Shown here one piece after another: positions 1,578 to 62,722 of a stretch of 64,000 nucleotides of DNA; within the stretch, counting starts at the first letter, position 1, and the number at the start of each line of letters is the position of its first letter. The stretch is from Symbiodinium natans (taxonomy: Eukaryota; Sar; Dinophyceae; Suessiales; Symbiodiniaceae), in the NCBI GenBank assembly GCA_905221605.1, contig CAJNDS010000054.1:179978-243977 (forward strand), read 5' to 3'. The notes under the pieces were generated by a model. The model searched no databases. It was not told where the DNA came from and saw only the letters and a program-made list of their open reading frames with translations. The position numbers were made by a program, and so were the translations under genes.

Positions 1578-1661
1578 CCTAAACCCTAAACCCTAAACCC
1601 TAAACCCTAAACCCTAAACCCTAAACCCTAAGCCCTAAACCCTAAACCCTAAACCCTAAAC
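1578..1661. repeat. telomere-type tract, C-rich strand
   Basis: About a dozen CCCTAAA units, nearly perfect, directly upstream of the exon at 1674. It belongs to the 3' part of an intron. Confidence 0.95.
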
Positions 1662-1673
1662 CTCCCTCGCAAG

Positions 1674-1766
1674 GACTCCTGGACGCCTGGCGGCGCATCG
1701 CGCCCTCCCAGCGCCGGGGCCTCCTGGAGCGGTTGCATCTCGGCGTGGCGCAGAGTACTTCTTTAG
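1674..1766 (+). CDS. candidate exon between telomere-type tracts
   Basis: Acceptor AAG at 1673 and donor G|GTTTAGGG at 1767, so the first telomere heptamer is the donor. The frame reads LLDAWRRIAPSQRRGLLERL followed by HLGVAQSTSL, an amphipathic basic helix. Family unknown. Confidence 0.55.
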   Translation, partial: DSWTPGGASRPPSAGASWSGCISAWRRVLL

Positions 1767-1987
1767 GTTTAGGGTTTAGGGCTTAGGGCTTAGGGCTTAG
1801 GGTTTAGGGTTTCGGGTTTCTGGTTTAGGGGGCTTCGGCTGAGGCTATGAGGCTTGTGAGTGAGTTGGGCGGGGTCTATGAGTTGGCGACGAGGCTTTGG
1901 TGTCATTGCACCCCAAAGCCTAAACCCTAAACCCTAAACCCTAAACCCTAAACCCTAAACCCCTAGGAAGAGCTTAGCCCCTATAAG

Positions 1988-2065
1988 CCCCCCCGACTCC
2001 GAGGAAGCAGGCGGTGAAGCCTGAAACTCGCAGCAAGCGCAGCTTGGCAGCCTTTTTTGGTCCAG
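1988..2065 (+). CDS. candidate exon, basic/proline segment
   Basis: Starts after AAG in a C-run and ends G|GTTTAG. The frame contains PRKQAVKPETRSKRSLAAFF. Same layout as the preceding exon: CCCTAAA block upstream, TTTAG-type block downstream. Confidence 0.5.
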
Positions 2066-2085
2066 GTTTAGTGTTTAGTGTTTGG

Positions 2086-2190
2086 GGTTTAAGAGGGTTT
2101 AAGAGGGTTTAAAAGGGTTTAAGAGGGTTTACGAGGGTTTACGAGGGTTTAAGATGGTGTAAGAGGGTTTAAGAGGGTTTAAGAGGGTTT
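2086..2190. repeat. variant telomere-type minisatellite
   Basis: Units of about 10 bp (GGGTTTAAGA with AAGA/ACGA variants) repeated about ten times. It looks like a locally amplified derivative of GGGTTTA. Confidence 0.8.
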
Positions 2191-2378
2191 AGGGTTTAAG
2201 GGCTCAAGGTTTAGGGTTTAAGGGGTTTATGGAGTATGAGGGCTTGAGGGGTTAAAACGGCTTCAGTACGGCTTTATTGGGTTGAAAGGCTGAGCGGGCT
2301 TGAAGGGCCTTGAGGACTGAAAGACCTGTAAGGGTCTAAGGGCTTCCGGTGTTCAAGGCTCAGGGTCTTCTTTTGCAG

Positions 2379-2441
2379 GGTTTGCGGTTTATGGGCTTCA
2401 CTTCGGGAACAGCGCTTGCCAAATTTCCACCCGCGAGACTG
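2379..2441 (+). CDS. candidate exon, 21 codons
   Basis: Good pyrimidine tract and CAG acceptor (TCTTCTTTTGCAG), donor GTTTAGGG directly after. The frame reads GLRFMGFTSGTALAKFPPAR. Unknown. Confidence 0.5.
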
Positions 2442-2513
2442 GTTTAGGGTTTAGGGTTTAGGGTTTAGGGTTTAGGGTTTAGGGTTTAGGGTTTAGGGTT
2501 TAGGGTTTAGGGG
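2442..2513. repeat. telomere-type tract, G-rich strand
   Basis: About ten perfect TTTAGGG units. The first one supplies the donor of the exon ending at 2441. Confidence 0.95.
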
Positions 2514-2653
2514 AGCGATTCAATAGAGACGCCCAAAAACGGATCAAGACGTGGGGTTCCTAACCCAAAACCCGAGACTCTGAATGCAGCAGGGCGTTCC
2601 CAAAATCCAGAGTCCCGAGAACGTTAAAAGAAGTGGGCTGTTTCCTTTCTATA

Positions 2654-2750
2654 CTAGGACCCAGATTAGGCCCTTATTCCTTTTTTTGTTGGGGGGGGGG
2701 GGGGGTTTTGGTTCCCTTATAAGCCCCTCTAATTCATGTACCTGGGGCAA
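2654..2750. mobile_element. family D introner-like element, left half
   Basis: Matches the family D left end (CTAGGACCCAG..TAGGCCCTTATTCC), then a TTTTTTTGTTGGGG run. The right terminus is not clear, so this is a decayed copy. Confidence 0.5.
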
Positions 2751-3003
2751 CTTCGGGAAGCTTAGGGAGTATTGGGGAGCATGAGGGAACCTTGGGTTCC
2801 ATACCCCCCCTTTGAACCCCTCTCCCCCAAGAACCATATAATTAGGGTTACCCTAAACCCTAACTAAACCCTAAACCCTAAACCCTAAACCCTAAACCCT
2901 AAACCCTGAACCCTGAACCCTGAAGAACCCTAGAACCTAAGAACCAGCAAGTTTCCGGCTGAGGCATTGCTGAGATGGTGACCGCTGCGCAAAAGTCCTA
3001 AAG

Positions 3004-3052
3004 ATCGGGCGGGAGGCTCGGAGGTCGAAACAAGCTCCGCTGCTGAGTGCGG
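3004..3052 (+). CDS. candidate exon, 16 codons
   Basis: AAG acceptor, GG|GTTTAGGG donor. Frame RAGGSEVETSSAAECG. Short and not recognisable, but it fits the tract-exon-tract pattern. Confidence 0.4.
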
Positions 3053-3312
3053 GTTTAGGGTTTAGGGTTTAGGGTTCAGGGTTCAGGGTTCAGGGTTCAG
3101 GGTTCAGGGTTCAGGGTTTAGGCTTTAAGGTTAGGAGCAGCTTTGGCTGCCACAAACCCCTTCAGCCCGAAGCCCGAAGCCCAAAGGCCACCCTGAACAC
3201 ACAGCCCGCAAGAGAGGGGATTTGGAGTTGAGGGTTTATGGTCTACCCTTGTTCCTCCTAGAACAACACAGCCAGCAAGCGAGGGGATTTGGAGTTGGGC
3301 TTCGATTATATT

Positions 3313-3348
3313 TTTCATTTTTTTTTTTTTTTTTGGGGGGGGGGGGGG
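3313..3348. repeat. T-run joined to G-run
   Basis: About 17 T followed by about 12 G. Same T-then-G polarity as other homopolymer junctions in the window. Confidence 0.9.
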
Positions 3349-3619
3349 CGTCTTCTTGTGGGGTTTTGCGGTTTGGGGCTTGGGGGTTATTTCGCATGTG
3401 GAACTTCATCCGTTTTCTGCCCGAGCTTTTACAAGCACTCAGTACAGCTCAGTTTGCTTGTAAACGGTTCGAACCTACCACAGAACAAAACAAACAAACG
3501 CTGTTGTAAGTCTGCGGCATTTGCGATCAGTATTCTCTGTTCGCACAGCTCTAGTCTGTTTTTTTGGGATGCGTCATTTGAACCCTAAAATACGCACTCT
3601 TCTTTTCAACTCCATTCAG

Positions 3620-3724
3620 GCGGCGGCCGAGAAGGTTGGTCAAGCATGCGGCCATAAAAGGGCGCTTGCTGCTCTGAGACCCCAAACCCACGGCCCTAGA
3701 AGTTTTGACAGCCCCTCCCCCTAA
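3620..3724 (+). CDS. candidate exon or exon end, 34 codons
   Basis: CAG acceptor after a pyrimidine-rich stretch. The frame reads AAAEKVGQACGHKRALAALR and runs to a TAA at 3722. An internal GTTGGT at 3635 could end the exon early. Confidence 0.4.
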   Translation, partial: AAAEKVGQACGHKRALAALRPQTHGPRSFDSPSP

Positions 3725-49632: not shown

Positions 49633-49685
49633 GTATTCCATCCAGGGCTTAGGGGCCTCTTCGAGTTAGAGTTCGGGGTTTGGGG

Positions 49686-51476: not shown

Positions 51477-52026
51477 GTTTGGGGATTTGGGATTTGGGGG
51501 CTTGGGGTTTAGGATGTTAGGGCTTAGGGCTCAGGTTTTGACCCTAAACCCCAAGTTTATGATTTAGGGCTTAGGGTTTAGGGTTTAACCCTAAACCCTA
51601 ATCAGTCCGTTGATTTTCCAACGCCAACATGTCCTACTTCTCGGAGCTCATGTCTGACATTTAGGCATGTCTAACATGCCCCGAATAGACCTCCCAAATC
51701 TCGATATGCCTAGTCTAGTATTATTTAGAGCTCGGGTTGTACCTAGTTAGGAGAGGGCCGGTTAAGTGTTTTCCTTACTTGATTAGGCCTGGGTAGGAGG
51801 CTTTGGGATTTAGGCCGTCAGGGTGCAGGACTTAAGCTTTGGCGTTTGGAGATTTAGGTCGTGTTCGAGTTGGGATTTCAAGGGGCCACGGAATAGCCAG
51901 CGCCAGCCCTGAGCGAACCCTAAACCTCTGAAGCCTATAGGACCTTAACGCCCTAATCCTCAACCCCTGAACACTAGATCCTAAATTCACCACACTCATG
52001 AAACATGCGGCCTTCCACTTGGGAAG
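51477..52026. other. no clear gene
   Basis: Telomere-type units at 51490-51600 and short GCATGT/ACATGC inverted words at 51650-51690. No splice-bounded frame recognised. Confidence 0.4.
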
Positions 52027-52084
52027 GAGCCTTTGATTCTCCCGGCTGCTGCGCGAGCCCAGCTGGACTGCTTTTGCTTCAGGG
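52027..52084 (+). CDS. candidate exon, 19 codons
   Basis: GGAAG acceptor, GTTAGG donor. Frame EPLILPAAARAQLDCFCFR. Confidence 0.5.
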
Positions 52085-52101
52085 GTTAGGTTGCAGGCTG
52101 T

Positions 52102-52200
52102 GAGGTCTGGAGGTCTAGAGGTCGAGAGGTCTAGAGGTCTAGAGGTCTAGAGGTCTAGAGGTCTAGAGGTCAAGAGGTCTAGAGGTTTAGAGGTTTGAGG
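52102..52200. repeat. (AGGTCTAG)n minisatellite
   Basis: About ten 8-9 bp units GAGGTCTA grading into GAGGTTTA and GGGTTTA, linking it to telomere-type units. Confidence 0.9.
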
Positions 52201-52289
52201 TTTAGGGTTCACTTGCACCCACCCCAAGCCTTACTAAGGGGCATAAAGGTACCTTGTTGGAGGTTTGGGGAGCCACATGGTCAGGCACC

Positions 52290-52400
52290 CCACTTGGAGG
52301 TTTTTGGGTAGATATAAGTATTACAAGTACCCTAATTTGAGGTTATAATATCATAGCTTACGTTACTTCTAAGCCTACTTGTATAGCTCTCGAAATTAGG
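52290..52400. mobile_element. family C element
   Basis: CCACTTGGAGGTTTTTGGGTAG and GCCTACTTGTATAGC..., AT-rich centre, right end decayed. Confidence 0.45.
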
Positions 52401-52567
52401 TTCTATGTTGGGATCCCTTGTTTAAGGGAGCCGCCTGAATATGTGTACCCAAAGGGACCCTAATTTAGGAAACCACCCACCTAGAGCTAGCCGTGAACCT
52501 TCAAACCCTAAACCCGAAACCCTAAACTTAAACCCCAAACCCCAAACCCTAAACCCTAAACCTCAAG

Positions 52568-52635
52568 CAAGCATCGCCTGGTACCGTTGAGGATCCCCTG
52601 CGCTGGTATCGGCATCTCGGCATGTCCACATGGGG
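52568..52635 (+). CDS. candidate exon, two open frames
   Basis: CAAG acceptor, G|GTTTCGGG donor. Frame ASPGTVEDPLRWYRHLGMST or KHRLVPLRIPCAGIGISACP. Confidence 0.5.
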
Positions 52636-52645
52636 GTTTCGGGTT

Positions 52646-52705
52646 TAACCCTAAACCCTAAACCCTAAACCCTAAACCCTAAACCCTAAACCCTAAACCC
52701 TAAAG
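52646..52705. repeat. telomere-type tract with tract reversal at both ends
   Basis: GGGTTTAACCC enters and CCCTAAAGGGTTTAAAGGGG leaves, so strand polarity switches twice within 100 bp. Confidence 0.9.
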
Positions 52706-52723
52706 GGTTTAAAGGGGTAACCA

Positions 52724-52828
52724 TATGGGGGTTTCCGAAATTTGGGGTACCTTCCTGGGGTCCTTATAAGAGGGAATCCTGCTAGTTGGGGGATTGGGCG
52801 TCCCTTGTTGTCGTAAACCCCCGTATGG
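52724..52828. mobile_element. family G element, complete
   Basis: CCATATGGGGGTTTCCGAAA and GTCGTAAACCCCCGTATGG are inverted. Confidence 0.62.
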
Positions 52829-52928
52829 CCTCAGGTTGACCCAATGTAGGGTTTACGGGTTGAGGAGGCTTGGGGAATCAATTTCGTGGCATCCTAGCTA
52901 GACACTCTGGTCTGAGTATACCATCAAG

Positions 52929-53005
52929 GCTGCGCTCTTGCCATCGTGTCATTACACATCGTGGCCGGTGACATTCGCATGTATTCTGCCGTCAGGCAGT
53001 TGCGC
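52929..53005 (+). CDS. candidate exon with short downstream intron
   Basis: CAAG acceptor, CGC|GTAAGT consensus donor. Frame CALAIVSLHIVAGDIRMYSA then VRQLR. The 56-nt intron 53006-53061 joins it in frame to the next exon. Confidence 0.65.
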
Positions 53006-53061
53006 GTAAGTGTTGGATGATGGATGGTTGAGCACCGTCCGATGTACTTCGATGTCAACAG

Positions 53062-53136
53062 CCATATCGTAGCAAGAGGCGTGGTAGGGTGCAACACCTC
53101 GGCGTGGAGCAGATGCTGCAATTACGCTCGGCCCTT
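53062..53136 (+). CDS. candidate exon, basic helix
   Basis: CAACAG acceptor, CTT|GTAAAC donor, exactly 25 codons: PYRSKRRGRVQHLGVEQMLQ then LRSAL. The opposite strand frame is weaker. Confidence 0.65.
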
Positions 53137-53437
53137 GTAAACCCTAAACCCGAAACCCGGCCCTTGTAAAACGCAAGAACTCAAGCCTGAAATCGCCAGC
53201 CCCTGGCGGGGCTCTCGATTTAGAGTCCAGGGCGTCGGGCTTCGGGTTTAGGGCTTGAGGGTTTCGATTTTGGGTTTCAAGGCGCGGATGGAGCCAGAGA
53301 GGTGTTGATTCGAATTGAGATGTTCTAGAGCTTAGGGTTTCCCTCTCCTCTTTGTTATTCCTCTCCTCTTTGTTATTGTTATTCTTTCTTCTTCTTTCTT
53401 TTAGGTAAAAACGGCTCCCCCCCCCCTCAAAAAAACA

Positions 53438-53457
53438 CACACACACACACACACACT
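53438..53457. repeat. (AC)n microsatellite
   Basis: AACACACACACACACACACACA after CCCCCCCCTCAAAAA. A CT/TTC-rich block precedes it at 53340-53405. Confidence 0.85.
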
Positions 53458-53619
53458 CGCACACTATAAACTATCAATTGACTCTATGCAGGTCAAGATG
53501 TTATCTGTAGGAAAGTGCGCATCAGGGTTCGGTCGGTGTCGGTATGTAGTGGGGCTTCTCTAAATTATGTGCCCCCGTTCCGTATTAGACTGGGAACCCT
53601 AGTTCAGAGAATCCCTCCG

Positions 53620-53646
53620 CCCCCCCCCCCCCCCCCCCCCCCCCCC
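53620..53646. repeat. poly-C run
   Basis: About 26 C, read as poly-Pro if translated. Confidence 0.9.
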
Positions 53647-53886
53647 ATATCTACAATCCCATATACCTGGGAGGACCCTCAACACTTTGAGAACACTCTG
53701 CACCCTCTTCAACACCACGTTCCTGGGAGAACACAGGGGTACCCTGTTTTGCTGCCTAGTTAAGTTTTTCTGAAGGCTCCTAAACCCTAAACCCTAAACC
53801 CTCAACCCTAAACCCTAAACCCTCTAAACCTCCTAACCCTAAACGAGGAGAATTAGTAGGCCCTCGTTCTTGACAGTTTGCATCAG

Positions 53887-53959
53887 CGAGGCATCCCCTG
53901 TCTCCCCTGCTGAGCCCTCTCGGCGTCCTGCGCCGAGCGAAGGAGCTCCCACACAAGGC
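53887..53959 (+). CDS. candidate exon, Pro/Ser-rich
   Basis: CATCAG acceptor, GGC|GTAGGG donor. Frame EASPVSPAEPSRRPAPSEGA then PTQG, linker-like. Confidence 0.55.
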
Positions 53960-54198
53960 GTAGGGTTTAGGGGTTTAAGGGTTTAGGGGTATAGGGGTTT
54001 AGGGTTTTAGGGGTTTTAGGGGGTGTTTTAGGGTTTAAGGCTTTAAGGGTTTAGGGCTTAGAGGGTTTTGTTTGGTTAGGGCGGTGAGGATTTGGGGTTG
54101 GGGGCTCAAAAGAATTCAGGCGGACTTGCTTGCAGGGTGTTGGGACCTTGTCGTTGGGCTTTCATGGTTGAAGGTTCCGAGCACTCACTGTGCACCAG

Positions 54199-54231
54199 CA
54201 TCACAAGTCTTCGCCAGCGCAGGACCTCTGA
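54199..54231 (+). CDS. candidate micro-exon
   Basis: ACCAG acceptor, GA|GTAAGA donor, frame ITSLRQRRTS. Confidence 0.42.
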   Translation, partial: HHKSSPAQDL

Positions 54232-54285
54232 GTAAGAGCATCCCCCAAAAGGGGATCATCATGTACGTAGACATAGTCCCATGTG

Positions 54286-54386
54286 GATGTTTCCGAATTG
54301 AGGTTCCTTATGGGGGGGGTCCTTACTATCAGGGAATCCTACTGTTTGGGGGTCTAAGGTAGGGGCCCATTGTTTTCGTAAACCCT
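54286..54386. mobile_element. family G element
   Basis: GGATGTTTCCGAATTGAGG and CCATTGTTTTCGTAAACCCTC, with a poly-G in the left arm. Confidence 0.5.
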
Positions 54387-54426
54387 CGGGCGCTGTGCCG
54401 AGTTTGCTCCCCCTAGAATCCTGTAG

Positions 54427-54462
54427 CGGCGCATTTCTCCGAGCCAGGGTCCCTCGAAAGAT
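54427..54462 (+). CDS. candidate exon, 12 codons
   Basis: CTGTAG acceptor, GAT|GTTTAGGG donor, exactly 36 nt: RRISPSQGPSKD. Confidence 0.5.
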
Positions 54463-54750
54463 GTTTAGGGTTTAGGGTTTAGGGTTTAGGGTTTAGGGTT
54501 TAGGGTTTAGGGTTTAGGGTTGTGAAACGGAACCTTCAAGAAGATGTCCTGTTTCACACAGTGCCCACATTCAAAAGCCTATGCCGAAACCCTATATACC
54601 TCAAATACCCTGGCCCTGTATGCCCTGTATACCATATAAGCCCTATATACCCAGTATGCCCTAAACAGTCCCTAAACCCTAAACCCTAAACCCTAAGCCC
54701 TATAGTAAGCCCCAAACTCCAACCCTAAGCCAGGCCACCACCGCACGCAG

Positions 54751-54823
54751 CGCACATTGCCCACGCGCCCGGCTGCGGGAGGCCAGTCTTGTCATGCCTC
54801 GATACTTATGCGAGGATGCCCAG
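54751..54823 (+). CDS. candidate exon ending inside a family D terminus
   Basis: ACGCAG acceptor, CAG|GTATGC donor. Frame AHCPRARLREASLVMPRYLC then EDAQ. The last codons (GAGGATGCCCAG) are also the start of the family D terminal repeat. Confidence 0.6.
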
Positions 54824-54907
54824 GTATGCCCTTATTCCTTTTTTTGATTTTTTAATTTCATTTATCTTTTTTTTTGGGTGGGTAGGGGGGGGGTAAGGTT
54901 CCCTGCA
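54811..54907. mobile_element. family D element, left half
   Basis: GAGGATGCCCAGGTATGCCCTTATTCC then T-run/G-run. Right terminus decayed. Confidence 0.5.
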
Positions 54908-55015
54908 AAACTCCCTTAAACCCGACAAGGACACAAACTACCCACCACACGCATTTTTTAATTGCACGGGCCCGAAGCCCTAAGCCCTAAGCCCTAAGCC
55001 CTGAGCCTTATAAAC

Positions 55016-55068
55016 CCTAAACCCTAAACCCTAAACCCTAAACCCTAAACCCTAAACCCTAAAAACCC
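55016..55068. repeat. telomere-type tract, C-rich strand
   Basis: Seven CCCTAAA units preceded by CCCTAAG variants. Confidence 0.95.
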
Positions 55069-55351
55069 TCAACCTATTCTAACTGCACTTACGTGCACGG
55101 CATCGTTTGTTGGGGCGGCCTGTTGCTGAAGTCCTTGTTGTGAGTTTTTGTTGCCCTTTTGGTGCTCGGATGATGGTACGGAGCCGTGTATGTAGGGGAA
55201 CCCAAAAGGGACCAAAATGTAGGGAACTGGCGCCAAGGTTTAGGGTTTAGGGTGTAGGGTTTAGGGTTTAAGGTTTAGGGTTTAGGGCTTAGGGTTTAGG
55301 GTTTAGGGTGGTTAGCACTGTTTGTCACGAAGTTCCTTCCATCTTCCACAG

Positions 55352-55405
55352 CGAGAATGCGGGATTTTCCTCGCTTGGAAGCTCACTGCCTTTAGAAATG
55401 CTGTG
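55352..55405 (+). CDS. candidate exon, 18 codons
   Basis: Acceptor TTCCATCTTCCACAG and consensus donor GTG|GTAAGT, exactly 54 nt: RECGIFLAWKLTAFRNAV, an amphipathic helix with Trp. Confidence 0.7.
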
Positions 55406-55561
55406 GTAAGTTCCCGAACCCAGACCCTATATGGTCAGTGCTAGAAAATGTTGGTTCTTCTCTAAACCCGAAACCCTAAACCCCACGTAAACCCTGAACC
55501 CTAAACCCGAAACCCTAAACCCTAAACTAAACGGGGCCGTATTCTAGCTTGGTCTCCCAAG

Positions 55562-55656
55562 CCAGACCCCAACTTAGAATGCCGGCCGTAGAAGCCCTGA
55601 GCATCTCCAACCTCCGGCTTCAGCAGCGTCCTAAACCTCGACGCCCTAAAGCCTGA
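55562..55656 (+). CDS. candidate terminal exon, basic C-terminus
   Basis: CCAAG acceptor. Frame RPQLRMPAVEALSISNLRLQ then QRPKPRRPKA and TGA. The last codons overlap CCTAAA-like words. Confidence 0.52.
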
Positions 55657-55826
55657 ACCCTAAACCCTGAAGACCAGGATAATTAGAAATTGTATGTGGT
55701 ATCATCGTGAATATCCCACGTTATTTGTCTGTCTAAATGAATTCAAAGCGCCTTCGGAAGGCCAAATACTCAATTTGTGGGTTCCAAGTTATTTGTCTAA
55801 GCAGCTGAGGGGCAGAGCCTAAGTAA

Positions 55827-56018
55827 ATGTATTTAAAGTGGTTGTATCATTCTAAATATCCCAATCCAAAGCGCACCAGCCCTCGCCGCCAGCAGCCGCC
55901 TGGCCCCCCAGCCCAGTCCCAACCAGCCCCCCCTCAACCCAGCCCCGGCCCTAGCCCCAGCCTCAGCCTAGCCCCAGCCTCAGCCCCCCAGCCCCAGCTG
56001 CAGCCCCGGCCCCAGTAA
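55827..56018 (+). CDS. Pro/Gln/Ser-rich open frame, 63 aa, doubtful
   Basis: CCCAGC/CAGCCC repeats translate to a low-complexity PQPSPGPSPSLSLAP-type run ending TAA. Could be a disordered tail or a non-coding minisatellite. A CCCAAAACTC minisatellite follows at 56050-56190. Confidence 0.25.
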   Translation: MYLKWLYHSKYPNPKRTSPRRQQPPGPPAQSQPAPPQPSPGPSPSLSLAPASAPQPQLQPRPQ

Positions 56019-56296
56019 AAAAACAAAAAAGACTTTCGGAAAGCAAAAAAAAAACTCGCTCAAAACTTTTGCCCAAAACCCGCCCAAAACTCACCGAAAA
56101 CTCCGGACACAAACCCTATACAATTTCTATGCCGAGAGCAAAGAAATCGCACGAAACCCGTCCAAAACTTTCGCCCCAAAACGGAACCCGCCAAAATTGA
56201 GGGGTTCGGGTTCAGGGCTTGGGTTCCTGAAGCCACCCTGGCCCAGAATCCAAATCTAAACCCCCTCAACCGTGAACATCCCTCTCAGGGGAGCAG

Positions 56297-56359
56297 CGTC
56301 CCACCACGCCGTCCTTCGGCTCCCTCCTTCGGAGTGAGGAGAGGAGCTTGTCTCCCCAG
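56297..56359 (+). CDS. candidate exon, Ser/Arg-rich
   Basis: AGCAG acceptor. Frame RPTTPSFGSLLRSEERSLSP. GTGAGG at 56334 may end it after 12 codons. Confidence 0.5.
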
Positions 56360-56375
56360 GCCCTGAACCCTGAAC

Positions 56376-56477
56376 CCTGAACCCTAAACCCTAAACCCAA
56401 AACCCTAAACGGCCCTAAACCCTAAACCGCCCTAAACCCTAAACCCTAAACCCTAAACTCTAAACCCTAAACCCTAG
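56376..56477. repeat. telomere-type tract, C-rich strand, interrupted
   Basis: CCCTAAA units with two CGGCCCTAAA/CCGCCCTAAA insertions. Confidence 0.93.
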
Positions 56478-56492
56478 GGCTTCGGGACTCAG

Positions 56493-56566
56493 GGCCTTGC
56501 TTCTTGGAGCATGACGCCTCGATATGTGTAACTGGCTGCATTTACTGCGGGCCAGAGGAGTTCTAG
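56493..56566 (+). CDS. candidate exon, Cys-rich
   Basis: CTCAG acceptor. Frame PCFLEHDASICVTGCIYCGP, EEF, TAG. CxxxCxxC spacing could bind metal. A second frame (NWLHLLRARGVLGSFHGIL) is also open. Confidence 0.42.
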
Positions 56567-56911
56567 GCTCTTTTCACGGGATTCTGTTTAGGGTTTAGGG
56601 TTTTTGCTCAGGAGGGGGTCATCATACAGGAAACCCATAAGGGGCCATAAATTAGGGAGCCCCCTACTCCCCCCCGCCCCCACGCAAGTCCAACGTTGGC
56701 ACAGCAAGTTGGCCGCCTACCACGGGAAGTAAGCTAGGAGCCGATGTTGGATAGAATGCTGTTTTGCCCCCTATAATTGGATCATTTGGAAGAAAGTCTG
56801 TTTCAGTGGTGACTTCGGTCGATTCTACTTGTCTAGTCCTGGCAGTCTAGAGTTTTGTGGCTTCGAGTTGCGGTTGATACAGTGCTGCCCTTTTCCTGTC
56901 GGTTCGTCTGC

Positions 56912-56968
56912 AACCCTAAACCCTAAACCCTAAACCCTAAACCCTAAACCCTAAACCTAAAAACCCTA
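56912..56968. repeat. telomere-type tract, C-rich strand
   Basis: Seven CCCTAAA units ahead of the PABC exon. Confidence 0.95.
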
Positions 56969-57012
56969 AACATACTTGATCAAGTTGGGCTCACAGATGC
57001 TCATGCTTGCAG

Positions 57013-57697
57013 CTGTAGGGTAGAGTCATTCGTGCAGCTTGGCTTACACCACATGGCGCATGAGCCGCATGAGGCCGACCCGACGTCTCTGAAGGGCATG
57101 CTGCTGGAGCATTTGGCTTCTGTCGGACTTGGTCAGCAGGCTCTCGAGGAAGTTACGAGGGCTCTACAAGCCTCGGAGGAATCCGCGCTGACATCAAATC
57201 TGACAAGGGTGTACAAGTGTGCGATGGAGGGCCAGCTTTGTGTTCGCGCGTCCTTGCTGAGTGGACGTGAATGCTCCGTTTTGGTAAGCCCTTGGACTAC
57301 CGTTGCACAAGCTCAAGCCCTGCTGACATCTGAACTGGGTGTTAGCAACGAGGGTTATAGGTTGGCAAGTGCCAAGCAGGCTTTGTATGAGGAGGATTTT
57401 ATCGGGATGCACTTCTCACCGACAAGTCCCCCCCTGTCGCTTGTCCGCGAGGAGGAGACCTTAGCAGCACTCGAAGCCAGACTTGCACGATGCTCCCCGA
57501 CCGTTCGAAAGCAGGTCATCGGCGAGATGCTCTACCCCAAGATTGCCGAAGTACAGCCGAAGCTCGCAGGAAAAATCACGGGCATGGTACTAGAGATGAC
57601 CGATTCTGAGTTGATAGTACTACTTCGCTCTCACCAACGGCTTCTTTCCACTGTGGACGAAGCCTTGAGAGTTCTGCACGCGGCGCGATTGGATTAG
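57013..57697 (+). CDS. terminal exon: ubiquitin-like segment plus PABC/MLLE domain
   Basis: Open from a GCTTGCAG acceptor to TAG at 57695, about 227 codons. From the GTG at 57032, residues 68-140 (QLCVRASLLSGRECSVLV..) resemble the ubiquitin-like beta-grasp segment common in dinoflagellate proteins. Residues about 158-217 are a PABC (MLLE) domain: MLYPKIAEVQPKLAGKITGM, then EMTDSELIVLLRS and VDEALRVLHA. The KITGMVLEM core is the signature of poly(A)-binding protein C-termini and of the UBR5/EDD E3 ligases. In those families MLLE binds PAM2 peptides of mRNA-turnover factors. The N-terminal exons lie upstream in introns with telomere-type tracts, so the full architecture (RRMs or HECT) is unknown. 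The lack of RRM-like islands nearby means it need not be PABP itself. Confidence 0.85.
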
Positions 57698-58241
57698 TGT
57701 CAGATGGGCAGACTCAGTGCTGACACAATACTGACACTGAAGCAAAAATTGAGGAGGGGATCCTCTTGGCTCGGCTTCTCTAGGGCTTAGTTTTGGTTTT
57801 TGAATAGGGTTGAATTGAAAAAGGGTGTTAAACCCTAATGAACTACCCTGAACCCCAAGCCCGAATAAAGCCCATGCCCCAGCCGAAGTCCATGATGACC
57901 CATAGCGCACCCCCTCAAAGAAATGTCCAATCTTTTACCCAACATCGTGTTCCCCCTAATGTTGTCCAAGTGCTAGGCTGCCCATGACGGACCTCAAGAA
58001 GTGCCTAAACCCCAAACCCTAAATCCTAAACCCTAAGCCCGAAACCATAAGTCCTTTGAAGCCCGGGCCTCACAGCCCTAAACATTGAGGCCCTCGGGTC
58101 TTGTGTTCGCTAGGATACCCAGGGTTGCCTTGAAAAGTCCATTTCGCGAAGAAAAGGGTGCACTTGTCGGTTTCTGAAGTACGTACCCAGCAAACAGTAA
58201 ACCCTCTTTCCTTGTGTGCAAGCTGCTGGTGCTCGGGTCAG
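57698..58241. other. probable 3' UTR and following non-coding stretch
   Basis: No telomere tract for 250 bp after the stop, unlike intron flanks. CAGTGCTGACACAATACTGACACTG at 57716-57740 is a small imperfect hairpin. CCCTAAA units return at 58012. Confidence 0.4.
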
Positions 58242-58365
58242 GCCAGCTGTGGGGACGCAGCGCGAACACGTGTTCGTCCTGCACCATCAGTTCCGGCAGC
58301 ACCTCGGCCAAACCTTGTATTCCAAATCAAACCCTAACCCAAAGGCTCCAAGGGCTCGTACTTAA
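58242..58365 (+). CDS. candidate exon, frame uncertain
   Basis: GTCAG acceptor. Frame PAVGTQREHVFVLHHQFRQH is the most natural, ending TAA. Another + frame and a minus frame are open across it. Confidence 0.45.
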
Positions 58366-58436
58366 AGGCTGTTGGAGCCGAAAGACCATACTCCCTAGGC
58401 CCCAAACCCTGCACATGCTCCAAGAGTAAGCTCTGA

Positions 58437-58534
58437 GCCCTGAACCCTAAACCCTAAACCCTAAACCCTAAACCCTAAACCCTAAACCCTAAACCCTAAA
58501 CCCTAAACCCTAAACCCTAAACCCTAAACCCTAA
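58437..58534. repeat. telomere-type tract, C-rich strand
   Basis: About 13 CCCTAAA units directly before an acceptor at 58538. Confidence 0.96.
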
Positions 58535-58538
58535 CCAG

Positions 58539-58618
58539 GCTTCCGGGGCTTCCAGGAAAGTTGGAAGACATTGCTTGAGTCTACGGCCTAGAAAGCTTCA
58601 GTTCTCCGGAGGCTTAAG
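58539..58618 (+). CDS. candidate exon, 26 codons, basic
   Basis: ACCAG acceptor, AG|GTTTGG donor. Frame ASGASRKVGRHCLSLRPRKL then QFSGGL. Confidence 0.52.
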
Positions 58619-58724
58619 GTTTGGGGTACCCTAAACCCGAAACCCGAAACCCTAAAACCCTAAACCCTAAACCCGAAACCCTAAACCCCAAACCCTAAAC
58701 CCTAAACCCTAAAAGGCTCACCAG

Positions 58725-58782
58725 GACCCTCATCGTGCCAGAATGTGTCTGGGCTCCAGCACCTTCAAGCCTAGGACCCGGA
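58725..58782 (+). CDS. candidate exon before family D element
   Basis: ACCAG acceptor, donor GTAGGCCC inside the element's left terminus. Frame TLIVPECVWAPAPSSLGPG, or in another frame MCLGSSTFKPRTR. Confidence 0.5.
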
Positions 58783-58894
58783 GTAGGCCCTTATTCCCCT
58801 TTTTAGGGTTTAGGGTTTAGGGTTAGGTTCCCTTCGAAGTCCCTCAAAACCCAAAAGGGCACGATTTTTATACCTAGGTTGCTCTTGGGTCTAG
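58771..58894. mobile_element. family D introner-like element with telomere insert
   Basis: CTAGGACCCGGAGTAGGCCC and CCTAGGTTGCTCTTGGGTCTAG are inverted. Three TTTAGGG units sit in its middle. Predicted intron 58783-58894 is 112 nt. Confidence 0.65.
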
Positions 58895-58943
58895 AAACAG
58901 AGAACTGCAACAAACCAATTCACTGCGCCAACATGTGCATGAA
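58895..58943 (+). CDS. candidate exon after family D element
   Basis: Starts at the element's terminal CTAG. Frames NRELQQTNSLRQHVHE (donor GTTCGC) or TENCNKPIHCANMCMKFAS to TAG. The second is in phase with MCLGSSTFKPRTR upstream. Confidence 0.45.
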
Positions 58944-59111
58944 GTTCGCTTCCTAGATGAGGCTTGTTCTAAACGAGGGCGCCCATTCTGGATACTATAG
59001 TGGTCGGAATAGTTACGAGTAATTAGTATTCCCTTATGGTCCGTATACAATGTTTACTCCAAAAGCCCCCCCGAAACCCTATTCTATCTATGAAGGCCCC
59101 TACATGACACT

Positions 59112-59211
59112 TTTGACCCTAAACCCTAAACTCTAAACCCTGAACCCTGAACCCTGAACCCTAAACCCTAAACCCTAAACCCCAAACCCTAAACCCTAAA
59201 CCCTAAACACA
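59112..59211. repeat. telomere-type tract, C-rich strand
   Basis: CCCTAAA with three consecutive CCCTGAA variants. Confidence 0.94.
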
Positions 59212-59219
59212 GACGGCAG

Positions 59220-59325
59220 CCCCGCAGCGACCCATCTTCTGCTTTACGTGCGCATCGCAGATCCTGGCGGCTGGGCCGGTACTTCAACGAGCTGTGCCCC
59301 GCATCTTGGCGGATCAGGAAACAGG
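59220..59325 (+). CDS. candidate exon, 35 codons, basic aromatic
   Basis: GGCAG acceptor after CCCTAAACAC, G|GTTTAGGG donor. Frame PRSDPSSALRAHRRSWRLGR then YFNELCPASWRIRKQ. Confidence 0.6.
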
Positions 59326-59599
59326 GTTTAGGGTTGAGGGTTTAGCAAACCTTAAGCCGAAACATCGTATCGCCCATGTCCTAACTCCTAAGCCTCAACC
59401 CGGGATGCCATGAAGATCGCCGATGTCCTAACTGCTTGGCCTAAACCAGGGATGCCATATCATGAAGGTGGATCCTTTCAGGCGCTCTAAGAACTTCGAG
59501 TCCACCACAAGTCATGCATGCACCCAAAGTTTCAAGATGGACCGCGCGTCGTGAGTAATATAGGGGCATACATGCTCCGCCCGCTGGTTATCCGTGCAG

Positions 59600-59704
59600 G
59601 CGCCCGCCCTGCCTCCGGCGCAGCCGAGCAATCTGTTAAGCCAAGGACCAACTTTAGACTGTAGATCCGGACTGCAAGATAGATACGAGGGCTTACGAAA
59701 ATAA
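59600..59704 (+). CDS. candidate exon, 34 codons
   Basis: CGTGCAG acceptor. Frame APALPPAQPSNLLSQGPTLD then CRSGLQDRYEGLRK, TAA at the start of a family G element. Confidence 0.45.
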   Translation, partial: APALPPAQPSNLLSQGPTLDCRSGLQDRYEGLRK

Positions 59705-59797
59705 GGCACCCCAAATATAGACCCCCTGATAGTAGGATTCCCTTAAAGGATGGACCCCCTAACAAGGTACGTGTCCCTATTCTCCGGAAGTCCCCAT
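59691..59797. mobile_element. family G element
   Basis: GCTTACGAAAATAAGGCACC and TGTCCCTATTCTCCGGAAGTCCC. Confidence 0.5.
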
Positions 59798-59908
59798 ATC
59801 TTTAGCCTTTTCATTTCGGGCCCCGAGGTGCCCTAGCATGGTCACAGCTTGAGGGTTTAGGAAGTGGTCCTGAACCCCTGCAAAGGTTATGAGCTCTGGG
59901 TTCACAGT

Positions 59909-59988
59909 GGGTTTAGGGTTTAGGGTTTAGGGTTCTTAGGGTTTAGGGTTTAGGGTTTAGGGTTTAGGGTTTAGGGTTTAGGGTTTAG
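59909..59988. repeat. telomere-type tract, G-rich strand
   Basis: About eleven TTTAGGG units. Here the tract is upstream of an exon and its last TTTAG serves as acceptor. Confidence 0.95.
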
Positions 59989-60030
59989 GGGAGCTGGCCG
60001 GCGTGGCGTGTTGGCTGCACTGCGAGCGAG
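59989..60030 (+). CDS. candidate exon with telomere-unit acceptor
   Basis: TTTAG acceptor, G|GTAGGC donor, frame ELAGVACWLHCER. Confidence 0.45.
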
Positions 60031-60413
60031 GTAGGCGCAGGCTTGCTCGCTTAGGACGTAGGCTTTGTTGTTCGCTACGCGCTTTGAACCCTAAGCAGCG
60101 GTGGTGACGTCAACTGCCTTGCGATTCAAGCCCGTGCTTGATCTTTCGCATCGCAACCCCAAGCCTTAGGCTCACAAGAACGCCAAAAACTGTACATAGC
60201 GTAGGATTTCGGGTTTAGGATTTTGGGTTTAGGGTTCAGGCTGGGCAGAGGTGATCTTGAGCAAGAGTTCTTAGAAAGCCTCAGGCTTAAGGACAACCAT
60301 GCGAGGGCCCAACCCCAAAGTGAGCCATCTGTCTCCAAAAAGAGCCTCTTGCGTAAACAGGTCTTAGGCTTCAAGGGTGTCACAGGCTCAGGGCTTGAGG
60401 TTAAGGATTTGGG

Positions 60414-60517
60414 TTGGGATGTGTCCCCCTTATACTAGCAGTCCTTAATCGGAATTATGGTACCCCCTTATTCTACTCCTTATCAAGGACTGTTAGTATA
60501 AGGGCGAACATCCTAAA
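60414..60517. mobile_element. family B palindromic element
   Basis: TTGGGATGTGTCCCCCTTATACTAGCAGTCCTTAAT and ATCAAGGACTGTTAGTATAAGGGCGAACATCC are inverted. Confidence 0.7.
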
Positions 60518-60572
60518 CATTTTGGGGTTTGGGGGGCCCGCAAGCTTTGTAAGACCTCTTCGATGCCACCAG

Positions 60573-60628
60573 GAGGCAGCGCTCCCCCGACACGTCGCTC
60601 TCCCCGCGGCTGCCAGGGCCGATCGCCG
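60573..60628 (+). CDS. candidate exon with GC donor
   Basis: ACCAG acceptor. Frame EAALPRHVALPAAARADR. The only donor is G|GCTTAGGG, a GC-AG intron made from a variant telomere unit. Confidence 0.45.
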
Positions 60629-60736
60629 GCTTAGGGTTTAGGTCTTAGGGTTTAGGGCTTAGGGTTTAGGGCTTAGGGTTTAGGGTTTAGGGTTTGGGGT
60701 TTGGGGTTTATTCAGTCAGCATTTGACCTCAAAAAT

Positions 60737-60833
60737 CTTGGGCTGTTCCCCCCCCCCTTGTACTAGCAGTACTTAGTAGGGATTAGAATGCCCCCTAGTA
60801 ATTACGGACTTAGTATAGGGGGAACATCCCAAC
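60737..60833. mobile_element. family B palindromic element
   Basis: CTTGGGCTGTTCCCCC..CTTGTACTAGCAGTACTTAGTAGGGATT and ATTACGGACTTAGTATAGGGGGAACATCCCAA are inverted. Confidence 0.65.
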
Positions 60834-61024
60834 CTCAAACTAATTTCGAAAGTCTAAACACCCCATTCCAGAATTTTCCACCGTTCTTGGCATCCTAGCC
60901 CCCCCACCCAACTCCCCCCCGCCCCCCCCCCCAGAGCCTTTGACCTTCTAAAACCCTGAGTCGGATGTTCAGATTTGGAATAAGCAAGTTGCAATCTGAA
61001 ATCTCCGTGAAACCCTTGCTGCCA

Positions 61025-61135
61025 GTAGGATGCCCAGCGTTCGCCCTCCTTGTCTTGAAAGGGGGTTAGGTTCCTTGTAGAAGCCCTATTCAACAATGGG
61101 TACCCTTCTTTTCCTATGCATGTCTTACTGCTAAA
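61025..61135. mobile_element. family D element, diverged
   Basis: AGTAGGATGCCCAGCGTTCGCCC at the left and GGTACCCTTCTTTTCC..TCTTACTGCT at the right. Confidence 0.4.
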
Positions 61136-61165
61136 TGAGCCCTGTTCCCTAAAGCGTCGGCGCAG

Positions 61166-61196
61166 CAGATGTCGCTCCGTCGGACCAGAGCTGACT
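61166..61196 (+). CDS. candidate micro-exon
   Basis: GGCGCAG acceptor, T|GTGCGC donor, frame QMSLRRTRAD. Confidence 0.42.
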
Positions 61197-61210
61197 GTGC
61201 GCAGAAACAA

Positions 61211-61320
61211 CCCAGAGACTCCAATATCCCTGAATTAAGGAATATACCTTAAATCATATTAGGTATCCCTAATATGATTTAAGGAATACTCCTTAATTAA
61301 GGGATATTGGAGTCTCTGGG
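61211..61320. mobile_element. near-perfect 110-bp palindrome
   Basis: CCCAGAGACTCCAATATCCCT and AGGGATATTGGAGTCTCTGGG end a hairpin with about 53-bp arms and few mismatches (TTAAGGAATA, TTAAATCATATTAGG inside). Confidence 0.85.
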
Positions 61321-61502
61321 AATGCTAGAGGGCCTGCTATCCCCCCACGATATCAAGCTCCACCAAGAATTGGCCCTGGGTATACCGGTAAGACACCTAC
61401 GTTCAGGCATTTTCTACTGGGGAGCCCACTGGTACCCTTGTCCGGCCCTTTTCCCCTTTTTTGGTAACTAACCCAACAATGGGGTACCCTTATTATGATA
61501 TG

Positions 61503-61602
61503 GGGTTTTCGAAAATATGGGACCCCTACTATAGACACACAAACAGTAGGATCCCCTTCTCACAAGGACCCCGAGAAGGTACCCCTAATTTCGGAAACCC
61601 CA
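61503..61602. mobile_element. family G element nested in family A
   Basis: GGGGTTTTCGAAAATATGGGACCCC and GGTACCCCTAATTTCGGAAACCCC are inverted. Confidence 0.62.
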
Positions 61603-61613
61603 TTTTATGGCTA

Positions 61614-61659
61614 TCCCTAAACCCTGAACCCTAAACCCTAAACCCTAAACCCTAAACCC
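61614..61659. repeat. telomere-type units inside the split family A element
   Basis: Six CCCTAAA-type units between the family G element and the family A right end. Confidence 0.93.
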
Positions 61660-61696
61660 CCAATGGTTACTGGGCTGCCAAGTCTACTTGCAACAG

Positions 61697-61745
61697 CCCA
61701 AGCAAGGAAGCCGCCTGGTAGCCGGGAGGAGAAGACACAGGCCGG
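61697..61745 (+). CDS. candidate exon, 16 codons, basic
   Basis: CAACAG acceptor, G|GTTAGA donor, frame PKQGSRLVAGRRRHRP. Confidence 0.48.
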
Positions 61746-61894
61746 GTTAGAAGGGTCAAAAGGGTTTAGGGTTTAGGGTTTAGGGTTTAGGGTTTAGGGT
61801 GCAGGGCTTCTAAGGTGTGCTCATTCGGAACCTTGCCAGCTTCAACGACGAGGGTGGCTTAGGTGGCTGATAGGGGGCTCAGTGTTCATGGGTT

Positions 61895-61990
61895 TTTTCT
61901 TAGGGTTTAGGGTTTAGGGTTTAGGGTTTAGGGTTTATGAGGTCTATGAGGTTTATGAGGTTTATGAGGTTTATGAGGTTTATGAGGTTT
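61895..61990. repeat. TTTAGGG tract passing into (TTTATGAGG)n
   Basis: Seven TTTAGGG units followed by five 9-bp TTTATGAGG units. Confidence 0.93.
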
Positions 61991-62011
61991 TTGGATCCAG
62001 TTTGGGTCCAG

Positions 62012-62076
62012 GCTCAATCCTGGAGAGGAGAAGTAGCGACGCTACAGCCTGCCATCGAGAGGTGTTGGCGATGAAC
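62012..62076 (+). CDS. candidate exon, 21 codons
   Basis: GTCCAG acceptor, AAC|GTAACA donor. Frame SILERRSSDATACHREVLAM. Confidence 0.55.
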
Positions 62077-62354
62077 GTAACAGTAATCGCAATAAAATAT
62101 GATGATAGAGGGGCTAAAGGTAGTTTGAAAGTGTGAGCATGTTTAGGCTGTATTGTTACTTGTATTACCATGCAGCTACAGTTTGTTCTTGCGTGATCTT
62201 CCAGACGTTCAGGTCTAAGGCCCCTAAGCCCTTAAACCCTAAACCCTGAACCCTTGAACCCAGCTGCATACTAGAAGGCTCTTGCCTTAGGGGCTGAATT
62301 CGCATGAGAGGAGGGCTTGGCTGAAGCCCTGAAGCCGAAATACTGAGCCCGCAG

Positions 62355-62382
62355 GAGCCTCCTGAGCCATCAACCCAAAAGG
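62355..62382 (+). CDS. candidate micro-exon
   Basis: CCGCAG acceptor, G|GTTTAGGG donor, frame EPPEPSTQK. Confidence 0.42.
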
Positions 62383-62487
62383 GTTTAGGGTGTAGGGCTT
62401 GGCATTTAGGATTTAGGGTGTAGGGTGTAGGGTTTAGGGTTTAGGGTTTAGGAGTAGGTTTTAGACCCAACCCTCCTGAGCCACAAG

Positions 62488-62575
62488 GCAAGACAGTCGG
62501 CGCGACCGCGCAGCCTCTCGCCTGAGATGTCGAAACGCGCATCCTGGTTCTGAGCTCCCAAGTGTTGTAGTTCGG
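62488..62575 (+). CDS. candidate exon, 29 codons
   Basis: CAAG acceptor, CGG|GTTTAGGG donor. Frame QDSRRDRAASRLRCRNAHPG then SELPSVVVR. Confidence 0.55.
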
Positions 62576-62722
62576 GTTTAGGGTGTAGGGTGTAGGGTTT
62601 AGGGTTTAGGGTTTGGGGTTTGATCTGAAGTTTGGGTTGCTGGGTACACCTTACATGAATCCTAATACCCAGAACCCTAGCCCCTTGATTCCCTAAACCC
62701 TAGCCTATGATGACGACCTTAA

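Follow-up and report, generated by a model that had tools for sequence, protein, structure and literature searches.

Dinoflagellate introners, described from Amoebophrya, Prorocentrum, and Symbiodiniaceae, combine inverted repeats toward both intron ends with non-GT donors and with direct repeats that span the splice sites (PMC7789003, PMC10666404). As applied in PMC10666404, the criteria of Farhat et al. call for inverted repeats of 8-20 nt no more than 30 nt from either end, a direct repeat of 3-5 nt at both borders, and the recurrence of an element at numerous unrelated intron sites. Interstitial telomeric sequences are arrays of the chromosome-end unit that lie within chromosomes; the dinoflagellate telomere unit is TTTAGGG (PMC11453091), and in mammals such repeats are reported to have been inserted at double-strand breaks (PMC7215372, PMC2246262). 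G-run enhancers and G-quadruplex motifs place G triplets on the RNA strand right after the donor; a passage of PMC9065059 gives an enrichment of quadruplex motifs at 5′ splice sites that is greater on the coding strand (5.56 vs 2.38 fold, and 3.01 vs 2.78 fold at 3′ splice sites), and G tracts beside the 3′ AG are described as silencers in human genes (PMC4320613). The nonconventional introns of euglenids have variable, non-canonical borders.

The locus considered here, a window of 64,000 nt, forms the terminal part of a contig from the dinoflagellate Symbiodinium natans and resembles each of these systems in part. Unlike the inverted repeats of introners, its heptamer arrays lie mostly 20-150 nt inside the intron ends, often at one end, and are present or absent at the same intron position; not one of 30 introns has a TTTAGGG-type (G) tract within 30 nt of the donor together with a CCCTAAA-type (C) tract within 30 nt of the acceptor. 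The 270 runs in the window, many of them intronic, are non-terminal tandem arrays of a telomere unit, the general dinoflagellate one, and are interstitial telomeric sequences in that sense. G runs also stand on the RNA strand close to 5′ splice sites, as in G-run and quadruplex enhancers, but here as telomere arrays that are mirrored by C-rich tracts at acceptors. In contrast to euglenid introns, every one of the 30 introns has an AG acceptor and a GT, GC, or GA donor, although the aligner favors such borders. A literature search of titles and abstract beginnings found no report of an orientation rule at exon borders for interstitial telomeric repeats. We know of no described rule linking the orientation of such repeats to exon borders.

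Repeat Tracts in the Window and the Genome

Perfect runs of at least 12 nt in the window number 139 of the TTTAGGG type and 131 of the CCCTAAA type and total 6.7 kb; they were merged into 154 blocks before gaps were measured. Gaps from a C to a G block measure 76-143 nt in 26 of 41 cases, and those from a G to a C block (n = 41) have a median of 313 nt. At exon size (60-199 nt) there are 27 C-to-G and 11 G-to-C gaps (shuffle P = 0.0006), which bears out the inverted placement noted in the first-pass annotation, whose tracts were found where it had put them. Another 20 G-to-G and 12 C-to-C gaps fall within the same range, so same-orientation neighbors are also common at exon size.

The asymmetry extends to the whole genome, where raw pattern counts, which include overlapping matches, gave 107,320 for C-N(85-115)-G vs 41,057 for G-N(85-115)-C, and 150,291 vs 134,222 at N(285-315). 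Collapsed by eye, the first 100 matches listed on contig C1 comprised 57 C-to-G sites in 531 kb and 37 G-to-C sites in 684 kb. Tract distribution is patchy across the genome: among eight hand-picked 6-kb stretches of long contigs, two were tract-rich (one from C54), three had one or two runs, and three had none. Tracts are also present at loci on further contigs, e.g., C1783, C659, C2418, C946, C1557, and C1790. Genes in this genome stand in tandem arrays, and their donors are rich in GC and GA, features on which an initially considered chlorarachniophyte or Paulinella origin was set aside.

A candidate donor motif, CTTGGC, was dropped as support. Summed over both strands of the whole genome, a G tract begins no more than 30 nt after it 14,730 times and a C tract 8,236 times; the control word GCCAAG precedes a G tract 12,089 times, so CTTGGC is not singled out, although AAG and CAAG are frequent exon endings, which may muddy this control.

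Host Gene and Its Exons

Splice sites were set by an annotated S. natans protein, P0003, and its relatives, which together define 30 introns. The gene and the exons discussed below are as follows.

27195..62550, + strand: host gene whose long introns separate about 37 short exons of roughly 20-90 nt, from the P0003 alignment extended by P0005 and P0006
30101..49423, + strand: part covered by P0003 (381 aa), with 23 exons and 22 introns, from spliced alignment
30780..30850, + strand: exon with C tracts (30633-30738) before it and G tracts (30855-30907) after it, from P0003 alignment
36493..36539, + strand: exon in island 36497-36595, from P0003 alignment
37661..37699, + strand: exon in island 37661-37746, from P0003 alignment
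45691..45735, + strand: exon in C-to-G island 45638-45763, not among the earlier examples, from P0003 alignment
59261..59300, + strand: exon in island 59220-59325, from alignment of the relative P0005

The 23 joined exons translate to all 381 residues of P0003, and the introns that it covers have GT, GC, or GA donors and AG acceptors. Over all 30 introns, the acceptor is AG in every case and the donor is GC in 18, GA in 7, and GT in 5, a result partly built in because the aligner penalizes other borders, though the flanking residues do fit the proteins. Tentative exons of the gene are the zinc-ribbon-like 5′ exons at 27195 and 28306 and those in 51263-56288 and 60618-62480. Our own exon prediction recovered 9 of the 23 P0003 exons exactly; predicted exons alone were therefore not counted and served for queries only.

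No tract overlaps any of the 1,617 exon bases. In the gene region, a mapped exon lies in 9 of 15 C-to-G islands of 60-199 nt (7 if two weakly aligned exons are set aside), in 5 of 13 G-to-G islands, and in none of the 6 C-to-C or 5 G-to-C islands. Seven C-to-G islands had been put forward as exon-bearing in the first-pass annotation, of which four do hold an exon (three by P0003, one by P0005); the other three (1674-1766, 7528-7652, and 23774-23855) have open frames and are unproved. A protein search with exons from 1674-1766 and 7528-7652 found nothing, a query that included all three matched only the gene at 30-62 kb and its relatives, and a search with predicted exons of 0-17 kb gave no match.

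An MLLE open reading frame at 57032-57694 was tried and rejected as an intron anchor: its good matches to the paralogues L002 (with L079) and L003 are confined to the frame and thus carry no information on introns, and it had no match among plasmid records. A search of the TCP1 family yielded too few exons for use.

Tract Orientation at Splice Sites

Three introns with tracts at both ends illustrate the arrangement, each with its donor-side tract placed from the tract list and splice map.

35205..35264, + strand: G tract 43 nt 3′ of the donor of intron 35162-36492
36592..36657, + strand: G tracts 52 nt 3′ of the donor of intron 36540-37217
37290..37400, + strand: G tracts from 39 nt 3′ of the donor of intron 37251-37660

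At the other ends of these introns, C tracts 36420-36489, 37064-37192, and 37591-37650 stop 3, 25, and 10 nt short of the acceptor, respectively. The G tract after exon 30780-30850 begins 4 nt into the following intron.

Counts of heptamers within 100 nt of splice sites had been proposed with RNA-seq as the guide; run with protein-defined sites instead, they support the orientation rule, with strong agreement at donors and less at acceptors. Of the tract bases no more than 100 nt from the 30 donors, 580 are in G and 96 in C orientation; at the same distance from the acceptors, 464 are in C and 177 in G, and none of 4,691 shifted maps reached the observed orientation value. The nearest tract is G rather than C at donors by 16 to 2, and C rather than G at acceptors by 12 to 6, the latter not significant alone (P = 0.24). 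Heptamers 3′ of donors number 28 G and 7 C at 0-50 nt and 62 G and 6 C at 50-100 nt, with G:C ratios further out of 30:4 at 100-150 nt and then 17:10 and 27:17; those 5′ of acceptors number 36 C and 7 G at 0-50 nt and 42 C and 16 G at 50-100 nt, are near even at 100-200 nt, and favor G (49 vs 11) at 300-500 nt upstream. The orientation bias is real, firm at donors and weaker at acceptors, and short-ranged, being most marked in the first 150 nt after donors and the last 100 nt before acceptors. G tracts approach the donor to 4 nt and the acceptor to 31 nt, while C tracts approach them to 20 and 3 nt.

The bias has exceptions, and the earlier statement that each intron starts G-rich and ends C-rich was too strong: within 150 nt, 8 of the 30 introns have both the donor G and the acceptor C tract, 9 the donor G tract only, 5 the acceptor C tract only, and 8 neither. 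A G tract is the last before the acceptor, 31-85 nt away, in six introns. Two counter-examples from the splice map are the following.

29355..29774, + strand: intron with G tracts at both ends, 34 nt from the donor and 43 nt from the acceptor
56360..58241, + strand: intron with C tracts 20-100 nt 3′ of the donor

Other gene families give a mixed picture. An actin intron (L061) is reversed, its donor lying close to C and its acceptor close to G, and in 12 tract-bearing actin and HSP70 introns, several of which are related copies, the tract nearest the donor is G in 6 and C in 5, and that nearest the acceptor is C in 6 and G in 2. At their ends, the 129 tract-free introns of these families are only slightly skewed toward G or C; therefore splicing in S. 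natans needs no G-rich donor flanks. Among actin paralogues, introns at the same codon occur with and without tracts (e.g., 4 of 13 with tracts after residue 82 and 2 of 14 after residue 153), which fits a gain of tracts in older introns.

Origin of the Arrangement

Pairing of GGGUUUA with UAAACCC in RNA had been proposed to join the splice sites, with the UUUAGGG array at the donor bound to the CCCUAAA array at the acceptor of the same intron. The arrays are complementary, both lie within 150 nt of the ends in 8 of 30 introns, and one predicted fold pairs G block 50811-50860, 324 nt inside its intron, with the acceptor C tract 51170-51196. The proposal nonetheless found no support in co-occurrence, length, or sequence variants, and it is now quite improbable: donor G and acceptor C tracts co-occur as by chance (Fisher P = 0.72 in a small sample of 30), their lengths are uncorrelated (rho = -0.01, P = 0.94), adjacent G-C blocks, not all in the same intron, share variants below the random level (mean cosine 0.124 vs 0.223), 14 of 30 introns have one tract of the two, and loops across the eight two-tract introns would span 191-1156 nt vs about 100 nt across exon-bearing islands. 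Among 14 G-block cases folded, one is predicted to pair in its own intron, six to enclose one or more exons, and seven to have no C-tract partner. Same-intron pairing is not supported, though a weak effect could be present given 30 introns. Hairpins across exons, in which the tracts on either side of an exon, C upstream and G downstream, would pair around a loop of about 100 nt, aiding recognition or being a tolerated by-product, merit equally little credence. Cross-exon pairing is predicted for G 30855-30907 with C 30633-30738 and G 37290-37400 with C 37064-37192, and in part for G 45764-45814 with C 45598-45637; for G 36592-36657 with C 36420-36489 it is seen in one of the two regions folded. 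Cross-exon tract lengths are weakly correlated (rho = 0.32, P = 0.10). However, in the longer region G 36592-36657 pairs beyond the next exon instead, C-before and G-after tracts are independent over 35 exons (10/5/11/9, P = 0.73), and variant sharing over exon-size islands is no higher than random (0.235 vs 0.197, P = 0.22). The folded regions are few and hand-chosen, that of 30440-30920 omits the remainder of the next intron, and folding disregards proteins, quadruplexes, and kinetics. It is likewise doubtful, if slightly less so, that the arrays are a genome-wide exon-marking signal, with a C array before and a G array after tens of thousands of tiny exons standing in for strong GT donors by forming quadruplexes or hairpins that span the exon.

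An origin at the DNA level, with placement inherited from the birth of the intron or tract, is unlikely but the most credible of the alternatives. Tracts could descend from introner-type terminal inverted repeats or from telomerase extending break ends beside exons, leaving each exon like a tiny capped chromosome; the C-exon-G orientation is that of linear DNA with telomeres at both ends, and the insertion at double-strand breaks reported for mammals supports such an origin. As in introners, direct repeats span the splice sites of actin and HSP70 introns, of 3 nt in 58 of 144 (shuffled mean 14.1, maximum 26) and of 4 nt in 21 (shuffled mean 3.3, maximum 10), and tract-free introns are without skew that would call for an orientation rule. 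Yet the 3-nt signal is weak in the window gene, at 5 of 30 introns against a shuffled mean of 2.5 and maximum of 9, and none of these 30 introns has both tracts within 30 nt of its ends. Tracts also differ among paralogous introns at one position and therefore seem younger than the introns, and a length below 60 nt occurs just once among the 41 G-to-C gaps of the window, so plain head-to-head fusions are rare. Chance or artefact, i.e., random interstitial telomere repeats in a subtelomere rich in repeats, or an assembly that collapsed or misjoined them, would suit a window at a contig end and a patchy distribution, and short-read assembly of simple repeats is poor. This account is very improbable, since the arrangement is genome-wide, tied to exon-size spacing, and seen on several contigs, no shifted map matches the observed value, and the exons translate to an annotated protein.

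The explanation preferred here, with about an even chance of being correct, is that tracts were gained in existing introns and that each end was filtered separately for the orientation that splicing tolerates or favors. The orientation bias, its short range, the lack of a detectable end-to-end link, and the tract differences at the same intron position are observed; selection through splicing, and roles of the tracts as enhancers, branch sites, or quadruplexes, would account for them. TTTAGGG tandem arrays would arise and expand within pre-existing introns, and near a splice site an array would be retained mainly in the orientation tolerated by, or profitable to, splicing. On the donor side, (UUUAGGG)n RNA would be a run of G triplets and may act as an intronic enhancer or RNA G-quadruplex; on the acceptor side, (CCCUAAA)n RNA would offer a C-rich stretch with no AG and with CUAAA words resembling a branch site, while the reverse orientation would give repeated UUUAG|GG, a ready-made false acceptor. 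With the ends filtered separately, exons would come to lie between C and G tracts, and introns would look inverted, without any pairing of tracts. Counting against this explanation are the acceptor signal that is not significant alone, the G tracts found upstream of some acceptors, the mixed orientations in actin and HSP70 introns, the slight end skew of tract-free introns, and two statements in PMC9065059: quadruplex control of splicing is suggested there to be confined to mammals and birds, and in one passage the strand difference along genes is bigger at 3′ splice sites than at 5′ ones.

Implications

An orientation rule for a simple repeat at intron ends shows up in whole-genome counts. 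It also cautions that such ends can acquire inverted repeats with no pairing involved, which matters for counts of introners. In a gene of about 37 tiny exons, with few GT donors and long introns, the orientation rule provides a handle on how the splicing machinery finds such exons, and it suggests that telomere-type repeats in genes need not be neutral debris.

The host gene and its introns

The window forms the final 64 kb of contig C54 (243,977 bases) in a genome of 759 Mb. Its tracts are of two orientations on the forward strand, (TTTAGGG)n (G tracts) and (CCCTAAA)n (C tracts), and TTTAGGG is given as the telomere unit of dinoflagellates in a passage of PMC11453091. A database query with predicted exons matched P0003, a 381-aa 'unnamed protein product, partial [Symbiodinium natans]' from C54, and its relatives P0004 (EukProt), P0005 (606 aa) and P0006 (Effrenium voratum); P0005 is probably cDNA (longest contig 1,952 bases). 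Exons were mapped by aligning protein against genomic DNA with a purpose-written spliced aligner, and the joined P0003 exons translate to its 381 residues.

30101-49423, + strand: part of the gene covered by P0003, 23 exons by spliced alignment
to 29318 and to ~62550, + strand: extension of the gene by P0005 alignment
27195 and 28306, + strand: two further 5' exons suggested by P0006 alignment

The protein-defined splice-site set comprises the 30 introns whose flanks were convincing; P0003 contributes 22 of them and P0005 the other 8. The weakly aligned stretches 51263-56288 and 60618-62480 were excluded from it, and their exons 53891-53942 and 61707-61730 entered the island count only. The introns have a median length of 765 nt and begin with GC (18), GA (7) or GT (5), and no tract base overlaps the 1,617 exon bases. 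In the actin and HSP70 genes, which are arranged as tandem arrays, 167 distinct introns have GC (84), GA (75) or GT (8) donors and exclusively AG acceptors, as mapped with an aligner that favours GC/GA/GT...AG borders. The donor spectrum and the tandem arrays fit a dinoflagellate.

Other features of the window are as follows.

57032-57697, + strand: single-exon ORF with an MLLE domain (PF00658), a 214-aa database protein
16297-19715 and 19941-23378: tandem duplication of ~3.4 kb, 97% identity by self-comparison
17174-17728 and 20834-21388: a 184-aa ORF in each duplicate
42447-42598: long imperfect hairpin of ~150 nt, 79% identical to its own reverse complement, inside intron 41131-42685

The MLLE ORF lies inside intron 56360-58241 of the host gene on the same strand, and a protein search found it (57032-57694) to be 55% identical to PABPC3 [Symbiodinium natans]. 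The genome holds two long and one short further matches to it, the two long ones similar in the ORF only. The first 184-aa ORF (17174-17728) had no Pfam match.

Tract orientation at splice sites

The first-pass annotation held that introns start G-rich and end C-rich. Within 100 nt of the splice sites of the 30 introns, donors have 580 G-tract against 96 C-tract bases and acceptors 464 C-tract against 177 G-tract bases. The resulting orientation score is 923. In 4,691 shifted placements of the tract map on the gene, scores averaged -2 (s.d. 210) and never rose above 568. The 22 P0003 introns alone score 815, against a highest value of 494 in 3,785 shifted placements. The heptamer count that the annotation had proposed, made on the protein-defined sites, likewise returned the donor-G and acceptor-C bias within 100 nt.

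Heptamers (single units, five common variants included) by distance from the splice site
Distance (nt); G:C after donors; C:G before acceptors
0-50; 28:7; 36:7
50-100; 62:6; 42:16
100-150; 30:4; 19:17
150-200; 17:10; 7:7
200-300; 27:17; 14:20
300-500; 26:20; 11:49
500-1000; 3:11; 5:11

The nearest tract within 100 nt was a G tract at 16 donors and a C tract at 2 (P = 0.001), and a C tract at 12 acceptors and a G tract at 6 (P = 0.24); adding the two tentative 5' introns gave 17:2 and 12:7. The G-rich start thus stands firmly, and the C-rich end is the softer half of the rule. C tracts approach acceptors to 3 nt and G tracts to 31 nt, and 23 G and 14 C tracts lie more than 200 nt from either intron end. 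At 300-500 nt before the acceptors of this gene, G-type heptamers are in excess (49 against 11 C-type).

Pairing between intron ends

The proposal that the two arms of an intron pair and so join its splice sites fared poorly. With a 150-nt limit, 8 of the 30 introns have both donor G and acceptor C tracts, 9 donor G only, 5 acceptor C only and 8 neither, showing no co-occurrence above chance (Fisher P = 0.72), and the lengths of donor G and acceptor C tracts are uncorrelated (rho -0.01). Paired arms would be expected to match in their variant units; the match in 42 informative pairs of neighbouring G-C blocks was lower, not higher, than in shuffled pairs (0.124 vs 0.223), a rough test because neighbouring blocks are not always arms of one intron. 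In predicted folds of six hand-picked regions with 14 G-block cases, 6 G blocks pair with a C tract so as to enclose one or more exons, 1 has its C-tract partner inside the intron where it lies, and 7 pair with no C tract. With the inverted layout, the nearest pairing partner is across the exon, not the intron.

Spacing of tracts in the window and the genome

Perfect runs of 12 nt or longer number 139 in the G orientation and 131 in the C orientation across the window, and they merge into 154 blocks. Gaps running from a C block to a G block (CG) have a median of 132 nt, 26 of 41 falling at 76-143 nt, and GC gaps a median of 313 nt. At 60-199 nt there are 27 CG, 11 GC, 20 GG and 12 CC gaps, the CG minus GC difference having P = 0.0006 when orientations are shuffled. 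In the other fetched loci, which include overlapping and tandem copies, 30/35 CG gaps fall in this range against 10/31 GC gaps.

Genome-wide, a pattern of two exact units, a free spacer and two units was counted with overlapping matches, so that site numbers are overstated: C-then-G gave 107,320 matches against 41,057 for G-then-C at spacers of 85-115 bases, and 150,291 against 134,222 at 285-315 bases. Being large at the shorter spacing and small at the longer, the C-then-G excess is linked to exon-size spacing. At the 85-115 spacing, the first 100 matches listed for each order, collapsed by hand, gave 57 C-then-G and 37 G-then-C sites; among these matches, contig C1 has ~107 and 54 sites per Mb, respectively. 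A long C-rich block downstream of an actin gene (L042:2607-3130) consists mostly of CCCCAAA units, a telomere-unit variant with an array of its own.

Gain of tracts and relation to introners

Tract distribution is patchy, with tracts absent from many of the actin and HSP70 loci. Among distinct introns sharing a codon position in 30 partly overlapping actin loci, tracts occur in 2/5 after residue 48, 4/13 after 82, 2/4 after 120, 1/11 after 128 and 2/14 after 153, some of these introns being tandem copies of one another, and in 0/8 after 50, 0/8 after 213, 0/13 after 259 and none at other shared positions. Since the same position occurs with and without tracts, tracts seem to have been gained within introns, and loss in tract-free copies could also have occurred. 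Of the two tract-bearing introns at residue 153, that of L045 carries a tract at each end as the rule predicts and that of L061 has them reversed, so orientation is a bias, not a law. In the 12 tract-bearing actin and HSP70 introns, some so short that a single tract is scored at both ends, the tract nearest the donor is G in 6 and C in 5, and that nearest the acceptor C in 6 and G in 2, which is weak support for the rule. In the tandem actin arrays G000:C1557:774589-823386 and G000:C946:211275-221329, copies differ in tract content.

Dinoflagellate introners are described in passages of PMC7789003 and PMC10666404 as having inverted repeats at intron ends, scored within 30 nt of both ends, whereas telomere tracts are so placed in 0 introns of the window gene. 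Introns of the fetched loci L011-L070 show 3-4 nt direct repeats across splice sites and a YTYGG/CCTGG donor motif at +4 to +12 (39/144 vs 2% background), which suggests that intron ends in this genome can resemble those of introners. Titles and abstract starts in the open-licence literature yielded no report of telomere-type tracts oriented by splice sites, and 'telomer' does not occur in the main text of the S. natans genome paper (PMC8045281).

Origin of the orientation

The asymmetry of the tracts, stronger at donors, resembles one passage of PMC9065059, in which quadruplex motifs are enriched at 5' splice sites with a larger coding-strand bias at 5' than at 3' sites; another passage gives the reverse, 3' over 5', along genes, and quadruplex splicing regulation is suggested there to be restricted to mammals and birds. 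In human genes, according to PMC4320613, G tracts adjoining the 3' AG silence splicing. The orientation may instead have a DNA-level cause: the ends of tract-free actin and HSP70 introns showed no comparable skew, so donor G tracts are not required, which leaves room for such a cause. Close to an acceptor, (UUUAGGG)n would create many false UUUAG/GG acceptor sites. G triplets downstream of donors are splicing enhancers in other systems. The favoured reading is that the two ends of S. natans introns would be filtered separately.
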